Source of the DNA: an uncultured Pelagibacteraceae bacterium
Lineage (GTDB): Bacteria; Pseudomonadota; Alphaproteobacteria; Pelagibacterales; Pelagibacteraceae
Direction: 5' to 3'
Length of the DNA stretch: 64,000 nucleotides
Assembly: GCA_902599625.1 (NCBI GenBank)
Contig: CACKGF010000001.1
Location: 1 to 64,000, forward strand
The notes beneath the pieces are model-generated. The model was not told where the DNA came from and did no database searches. It saw only the letters and a list, made by a program, of their open reading frames with translations. The translations under genes were made by a program, and so were the position numbers. Shown here in pieces: positions 46,933-48,680 of the stretch. Every line of letters begins with the position of its first letter. Positions within the stretch are counted from its first letter, which is position 1.

Positions 46933-46982
46933 TTTAATTCTTGCCTTTGCTTGAATAAATTTATAAAACCTTTAAAAAAACG

Positions 46983-47053
46983 CACAAAGCTTTCGGTTAA
47001 TAACCTCCGGTCCTTAAATGGAAATAGCTTTGGTGGTACAACCGGGAAAAATT
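46983..47053 (+). promoter_or_regulatory. Structured rpsB leader RNA with possible pseudoknot over the ribosome site
   Basis: A long stem pairs CAC-AAAGCT (46983-46991) with AGCTTT-g-GTG (47026-47035, one bulged G). Inside it lies GGTT-AAT-AACC (46995-47005). The loop segment CCGGT (47007-47011) can pair with ACCGG (47041-47045), directly overlapping the GGGA ribosome site 7 nt before the rpsB ATG. This is the shape expected for autogenous control by protein S2, known in E. coli by mechanism though not by this structure. The pairing is read by eye only. Confidence 0.55.
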
Positions 47054-47824
47054 ATGAAGATACCTAACTTATCTATACAACAACTCTTAGAAGCAGGAGT
47101 ACATCTTGGTCATAAAACACTTAGATGGAATCCTAAAATGAAGAAATATATTTTTGGAAAAAGGGACTCAGTTCATATAATTGATCTTACTCAAACTCTT
47201 GAACTTACTAATAAAGCTTTAGAAAAAATTTATGAAACCATCTCAAATAACGGAAAAATTTTATTTATATCAACAAAAAAACAAGCATCAGAGGCAATTG
47301 CAGACTTAGCTAAATCAACTGATCAATATTTCGTAAATTATAGATGGTTAGGAGGTATGTTAACTAATTGGGGAACTATATCTAACTCTATTAAAAAACT
47401 TCAAAAAATTAATATTGATCTTAAATCAGAAAATAGAGGATTTACAAAAAAAGAGCTTCTTAAAATGAGCATCTTAAGAGACAAACTTCAAAGATCTTTG
47501 GGAGGTATATCTGATATGAAAAAGGTTCCTGATTTAGTTTTTATAATTGACACAAATTATGAATCTTTAGCCATTAAAGAGTCAATAAAACTGAATATTC
47601 CTATAATAGCTATCCTTGATACAAACTCAGATCCAGAAGGTATCGACTATCCGATTCCAGGAAATGATGATGCTAGAAGATCGATCGATCTTTATTGTTC
47701 TCTTGTAAAAGAAACTATTATTAATGCTAAGAAGAATATTCCCAATGACATTAAAAAAAATGGGGAGCAAAAAGAAATAATATCAAAAACTTCCACTTCC
47801 TCATTAAAAAAAAAGATTAATTAA
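47054..47824 (+). CDS. rpsB: 30S ribosomal protein S2
   Basis: The track ORF starts at 47018, but that ATG lies in the leader structure. The ATG at 47054 gives the usual N-terminus MKIPNLSIQQLLEAGVHLGH (256 aa). The sequence IDLTQTLELTNKAL, YRWLGGMLTNWGTI and IPIIAILDTNSDPEGIDYPIPGNDDARRSI match the family. It begins the rpsB-tsf-frr translation cluster. Confidence 0.96.
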   Translation: MKIPNLSIQQLLEAGVHLGHKTLRWNPKMKKYIFGKRDSVHIIDLTQTLELTNKALEKIYETISNNGKILFISTKKQASEAIADLAKSTDQYFVNYRWLGGMLTNWGTISNSIKKLQKINIDLKSENRGFTKKELLKMSILRDKLQRSLGGISDMKKVPDLVFIIDTNYESLAIKESIKLNIPIIAILDTNSDPEGIDYPIPGNDDARRSIDLYCSLVKETIINAKKNIPNDIKKNGEQKEIISKTSTSSLKKKIN

Positions 47825-47828
47825 TTAA

Positions 47829-48680
47829 ATGAGCGACCTTGAAAGTGTAAAAAAGTTAAGAAGTACAACAGGCGCTGGTTTTAAGGATTGTAACAGTGCT
47901 TTAAAAGAGGCATCAGGAAATTTAGATAAAGCTATTGAAATTTTACGAATTAAAGGAGTTTCAAAAGCCTCAAAAAAAATGTCTAGAGAGGCCAACGAGG
48001 GTCTTATATCTATTTTTGGTGATGAAAAAAAAACTTCTATAATTGAAATTAATTGTGAGACAGATTTTGTTGCTAAAAATGATGACTTTCTAAATTTCTC
48101 TAAAGAAATTGGTGAGATTAATAATTATGTAAACTCTGATCTTGATAAACTTAAAAACAGTAAAATGAAAAATGGTTCAACTGTTGCACAAAATTTAATA
48201 GATCTTATATCTAAAATTGGTGAAAAAATTACAATAGGTAGGTCAAAAACTTTAGTAAACTCAAATTCAAAAATTTTTACTTATAATCACTCAATAGTTA
48301 AAAATAATTTATCTAAACTTGGTGTTGTTGTAAGTTTAGATTTTGATAACAACTCAAAAGATATCGAACAGTTTGGCAAGCAAATTTCAATGCATATCGC
48401 TGCTTCAAATCCGATGGTAATCGATAAAAAAGATATTCAGGACGATATTATTGAAAGAGAAAAAAATATAATTCAAGAAGAACTAAAAAATCTCGGAAAA
48501 CCCCAAGAGATAGCTAATAAAATAAGCCAAGGCAAAATAAATAAATTTAAGGAAGATAACAGCTTACTTACACAAGACTGGGTGATGGATCCTAAATTAA
48601 AAGTCAATGAAGTTTTAAATAAAATAGATTCAAAGGGTTTAAAAATTAAAGATTTTATTAGAATTAAAATTGGCGAATAA
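47829..48680 (+). CDS. tsf: Elongation factor Ts
   Basis: This 283-aa protein begins with the UBA-like [34 protein letters not shown] motif and contains [15 protein letters not shown] (about 73-87) and the MHIAASNPM block. It exchanges GDP for GTP on EF-Tu. It is 4 nt after rpsB and overlaps frr by 1 nt, with no pyrH between. Confidence 0.96.

Follow-up and report, generated by a model that had tools for sequence, protein, structure and literature searches.

The stretch analysed here (the window) comprises the first 64,000 nucleotides of contig CACKGF010000001.1, from an uncultured bacterium of the Pelagibacteraceae (SAR11). Between the end of dnaE (46932) and the ATG of rpsB, the gene of ribosomal protein S2 (47054), there is a gap of 121 nt that carries a structured leader RNA. 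This leader is not a new element: it is the form that the known rpsB RNA (Rfam family RF01815) takes in SAR11, the lineage of its discovery. Judged from aligned sequences, the folded leader is real and conserved across SAR11. We propose, with a probability of about 0.7, that it acts as an autogenous operator in which a pseudoknotted fold stabilised by S2 would block docking of the 30S ribosomal subunit.

The element runs from 46981 to the last paired base at 47045 and forms a three-stem junction with a 5-bp pseudoknot (Table 1). An earlier note, made from this sequence alone, had described a stem, a small hairpin and the complementarity of a CCGGT loop segment with a downstream ACCGG, and all of these are present, as is the elevated GC content that it pointed out (46% against 29% in the window, a value reached by only 1.9% of the 67-nt windows in the 64 kb). 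Its limits and its base register need some adjustment. The element starts 2 nt before 46983, where the note had placed it, and the register that the note gave for the stem (P1) fits the relatives slightly worse than that of Rfam. The first pairs had been given as C46983-G47035, A46984-U47034 and C46985-G47033, with G47032 bulged, whereas in the Rfam register A46984 is bulged and C46981-G47035, G46982-U47034, C46983-G47033 and C46985-G47032 are paired. With the Rfam register 96.0% of the P1 cells are paired and 7 pairs vary on both sides, versus 94.1% and 5 with the other.

The evidence for the fold is comparative. We gathered the regions upstream of rpsB from SAR11 genomes, aligned 42 of them and built a covariance model (R1); the larger alignment used for the counts (A2) has 61 matches in 60 distinct rows and extends to further genera and to another family within the order. 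Standard pairs occupy 97.0% of the pair cells, and 12 of the 20 pairs change on both sides, in 94 cells against 23.7 in shuffled alignments, none of 500 shuffles reaching as high a value. Sliding the 3' partners destroys this signal, giving far lower counts. P1 is the most variable stem (for example G-C/A-U and U-A/C-G), the three pairs of P2 are conserved and all three show changes on both sides, and no sequence has a broken pseudoknot. Its middle pair is U-A in place of G-C in two loci (L046 and L056), where CCUGU faces ACAGG, a compensatory change. The covariation that the earlier note had proposed to look for is thus present across SAR11, and the loss of pairings in close relatives, which it had named as evidence against the structure, was seen in none of the relatives examined. 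In this way, covariation in dozens of SAR11 genomes confirms a regulatory RNA first proposed from one of them.

Of 297 genomes sampled from the order, 246 gave a match to the model, with a single copy in each genome that was listed, and the element was found before rpsB wherever it was inspected. In 20 genomes without a match that were checked by protein search no rpsB was detectable in the assembly, while the same search found the gene in 12 of 12 control genomes, and these absences therefore look like assembly gaps. A pseudoknot broken on one side only (5' strand intact, the tested C of the 3' strand mutated) was found in none of the 297 genomes, in a search whose allowed gap covered that of typical members.

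The identity of the RNA follows from a cmscan search against Rfam, in which the leader matched RF01815 over its full length (model positions 1-132) with 32.9 bits and an E value of 4.3e-5. This is below the Rfam gathering cut-off of 40 bits, a curation threshold and not a biological feature, and no match is obtained at the default gathering thresholds. The motif was discovered in 'Candidatus Pelagibacter ubique' HTCC1062, between dnaE and rpsB (873155-873283), and described as having P1, a P2 of three bp, a P3 of two bp and a five-bp pseudoknot, with autoregulation by S2 proposed (Meyer et al., 2009, PMC2704228). The leader in the window has the same fold, with changes on both sides in P1, P2 and P3 and a five-pair pseudoknot formed by J2-3 (the segment joining P2 and P3), and it adjoins rpsB directly on its 5' side; the novelty that the earlier note implied does not hold, the family having already been described. 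What sets the SAR11 copies apart is that they score under 40 bits and that they are without a separate Shine-Dalgarno (SD) sequence past the pseudoknot, which ends ca. 8 nt before the ATG. None of the 297 genomes of the order passes the cut-off, and one (G120) does so with permissive filters (40.4). A sampled genome (G011) has its match at 873211-873292 and a score of 33.3 bits, and the threshold would exclude even this probable founding genome. Among 142 genomes sampled from the whole class, 92 gave a match and 36 passed the cut-off. With the standard Rfam threshold the rpsB RNA thus goes unseen in almost all SAR11, which are very abundant in the ocean. The SAR11 model (R1) scores such sites at ca. 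30-104 bits.

Table 1. Features of the rpsB leader and its surroundings (positions in the window; pairing from the alignment of 60 distinct rows).
Feature	Position	Strand	Remarks
P1, 5' strand (A46984 bulged)	46981..46991	+	7 of 10 P1 pairs vary on both sides; 96.0% of cells paired
P1, 3' strand	47026..47035	+	same alignment as the 5' strand
P2 hairpin, GGUU 46995-46998 with AACC 47002-47005	46995..47005	+	97.7% of cells paired
J2-3, pseudoknot 5' strand CCGGU	47007..47011	+	100% of cells paired with 47041-47045
P3 mini-hairpin, CC 47012-47013 with GG 47020-47021	47012..47021	+	93.3% of cells paired
Pseudoknot 3' strand ACCGG	47041..47045	+	final GG opens the only SD-like sequence, GGGA 47044-47047
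rpsB (ribosomal protein S2)	47054..47824	+	start at ATG 47054
tsf (EF-Ts)	47829..48680	+	begins 4 nt past the rpsB stop
Promoter-like pair, -35-like CTTGCC (46940-46945), 16 nt, -10-like TATAAA (46962-46967)	46940..46967	+	putative

The position of the pseudoknot with respect to the start codon is what distinguishes SAR11. In the window its 3' strand ends 8 nt 5' of the rpsB ATG, and in a survey of 135 SAR11 loci (several being repeat fetches of one genome) the distance was also 8 nt in 108, and in 128 the best SD-like match was just a GGA that starts with the final GG of the pseudoknot. In 26 other alphaproteobacteria most spacings were 14-19 nt, and AAGGA or AAGGAG lay within them. This separate AAGGAG site 3' of the pseudoknot, present in the other alphaproteobacteria, is absent from the SAR11 loci, and the GG of the knot is therefore the only SD-like piece there. 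The earlier note had singled out GGGA as the only ribosome-site-like motif, which is true of this sequence, but its third G is not conserved (the bases after CCGG are GA in 35, AA in 21 and AG in 5 of 61 sequences). The predicted SD pairing is -3.8 kcal/mol here versus -8.0 for one typical other alphaproteobacterium. The tail of the SAR11 16S rRNA reads GGATTACC, not GGATCACC, and among SAR11 relatives CCTCC is retained wherever the tail was found. A second family of the SAR11 order has CCGGAG, so that a better SD overlaps the knot. In four of its loci (L128:1499-1578, L131:1505-1584 on the minus strand, L132:1499-1580 and L134:1499-1583) the pseudoknot 3' strand reads AACCGGAG, a GGAG SD directly overlaps the knot, and P1 ends in GGATG where GGTGG is otherwise conserved.

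In Escherichia coli, S2 represses translation of rpsB-tsf with the help of S1, and tsf is lowered as well (review PMC10931766, which cites Aseev et al., 2008, 2009 for the operator). The earlier note was correct in envisaging an S2-responsive leader with a pseudoknot, a reading already established for the family (RF01815; Meyer et al., 2009; repression by S2 in E. coli, PMC10931766). The SAR11 leader resembles the E. coli 5' untranslated region in being a structured, conserved leader of rpsB-tsf, and repression by S2 is here taken over from that species. That ribosome docking is blocked directly is a plausible proposal drawn from the SAR11 geometry. As the comparison shows, P1 closes the three-way junction with the short P2 and P3, and J2-3 pairs with the segment just past P1. 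Transcription would start a few nt before P1. Free S2, when in excess of the 30S subunits being assembled, would bind this fold and stabilise it (in E. coli, with S1). The stabilised fold would then hold the 30S subunit off the rpsB start site, because the 3' strand of the knot stops 8 nt short of the ATG and contains the sole SD-like GG; S2 output would fall, and EF-Ts with it by coupling. Direct occlusion is the simplest reading since the pseudoknot occupies the ribosome landing place.

Several observations weigh against this proposal. The folding energy of the single sequence gives no signal (z = -0.16), and minimum-energy prediction yields a different structure, which is not conserved; single-sequence thermodynamics does not support the fold, and for this reason the case rests on comparison. 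Four of the five pseudoknot pairs are invariant and hence uninformative on covariation. SD use is weak in this genome, GGAG being found at 4.3% of 322 gene starts versus 0.9% in a control region (figures from 384 kb of contig, with uncertain start-codon assignment). Masking of an SD may therefore count for little, and blocking would probably be steric rather than pure SD masking. Finally, the review on E. coli does not count the ribosome binding site as part of the operator and calls the mechanism unclear (PMC10931766). These last two points also favour the best of the alternatives, namely that the same RNA acts in the E. coli manner: S2, together with S1, would recognise the junction and a bulge, the knot would be recognition architecture only, not covering the ribosome site, and its closeness to the ATG would be a by-product of leader shortening. 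Both the SD and the start codon are reported to be outside the E. coli operator, deletion of a conserved bulge far upstream may abolish control (PMC10931766), and in most other alphaproteobacteria the SD lies 3' of the pseudoknot. However, the SAR11 knot, mostly 8 nt from the ATG, is within the footprint of the initiating ribosome and could hardly be neutral, and we regard this alternative as rather unlikely. Given that the E. coli ribosome site is reported outside its operator, the SAR11 geometry makes a clean test case for how S2 represses.

Judged from comparative structure, the SAR11 knot coincides with the position of the ribosome site, in contrast to E. coli. A further step, which we put forward tentatively and lean slightly against, is that the SAR11 leader has been compacted: the separate SD would have been lost, the pseudoknot strand would have become the ribosome landing site, and S2 control would have shifted from an indirect, E. 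coli-like form to direct occlusion. If true, a single RNA family would have changed its mechanism in this one lineage. The overlap of pseudoknot and ribosome site specific to the SAR11 lineage may be the only new part of what is described here.

The different minimum-energy structure could also be taken as a real second state of a switch, with an alternative hairpin UUUCGGUU/AACCGGGA (46991-46998 with 47040-47047). Its energy is -16.2 kcal/mol versus -13.0 for P1, P2 and P3 without the pseudoknot, but the pseudoknot duplex may contribute as much as ca. -6.6 kcal/mol if loop costs are left aside, and energies do not separate the folds. Several pairs of the hairpin are absent from many relatives (some form in 32, 37 and 45 of 61 sequences, for example), and such a switch is very improbable. 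That the leader is a metabolite riboswitch, or some other structured 5' untranslated region preceding rpsB by chance, can be practically discarded: a knot near the start codon does resemble the general design of SAM-II and SAM-V, but the leader matches the rpsB family end to end, has no metabolic genes around it and occurs once per listed genome, before rpsB wherever inspected. The SAM-V riboswitch of SAR11 (metY) is likewise described as having a pseudoknot near the start codon and translational control (PMC6061858, PMC2704228), but it differs in sequence, fold and ligand and is unrelated.

As for the surroundings of the leader, an in-frame ATG upstream (47018) was considered as the rpsB start and rejected, since it lies within the variable P3 loop and is not conserved. 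The spacing of rpsB and tsf indicates that they are presumably co-transcribed. A scan with a stricter sigma-70 consensus gave no promoter at its strictness, while the loose motif [CG]TTGNN-N15..18-TNTAAN occurred in 43 of 71 distinct relatives, where a Markov control predicts 0.38, mostly with a spacing of 16. The conservation of the promoter-like pair in relatives points to a transcription start just before P1. Most SAR11 relatives have a promoter-like CTTGnn, 16 nt, TNTAAA at this place, which suggests that rpsB-tsf has its own promoter after dnaE.
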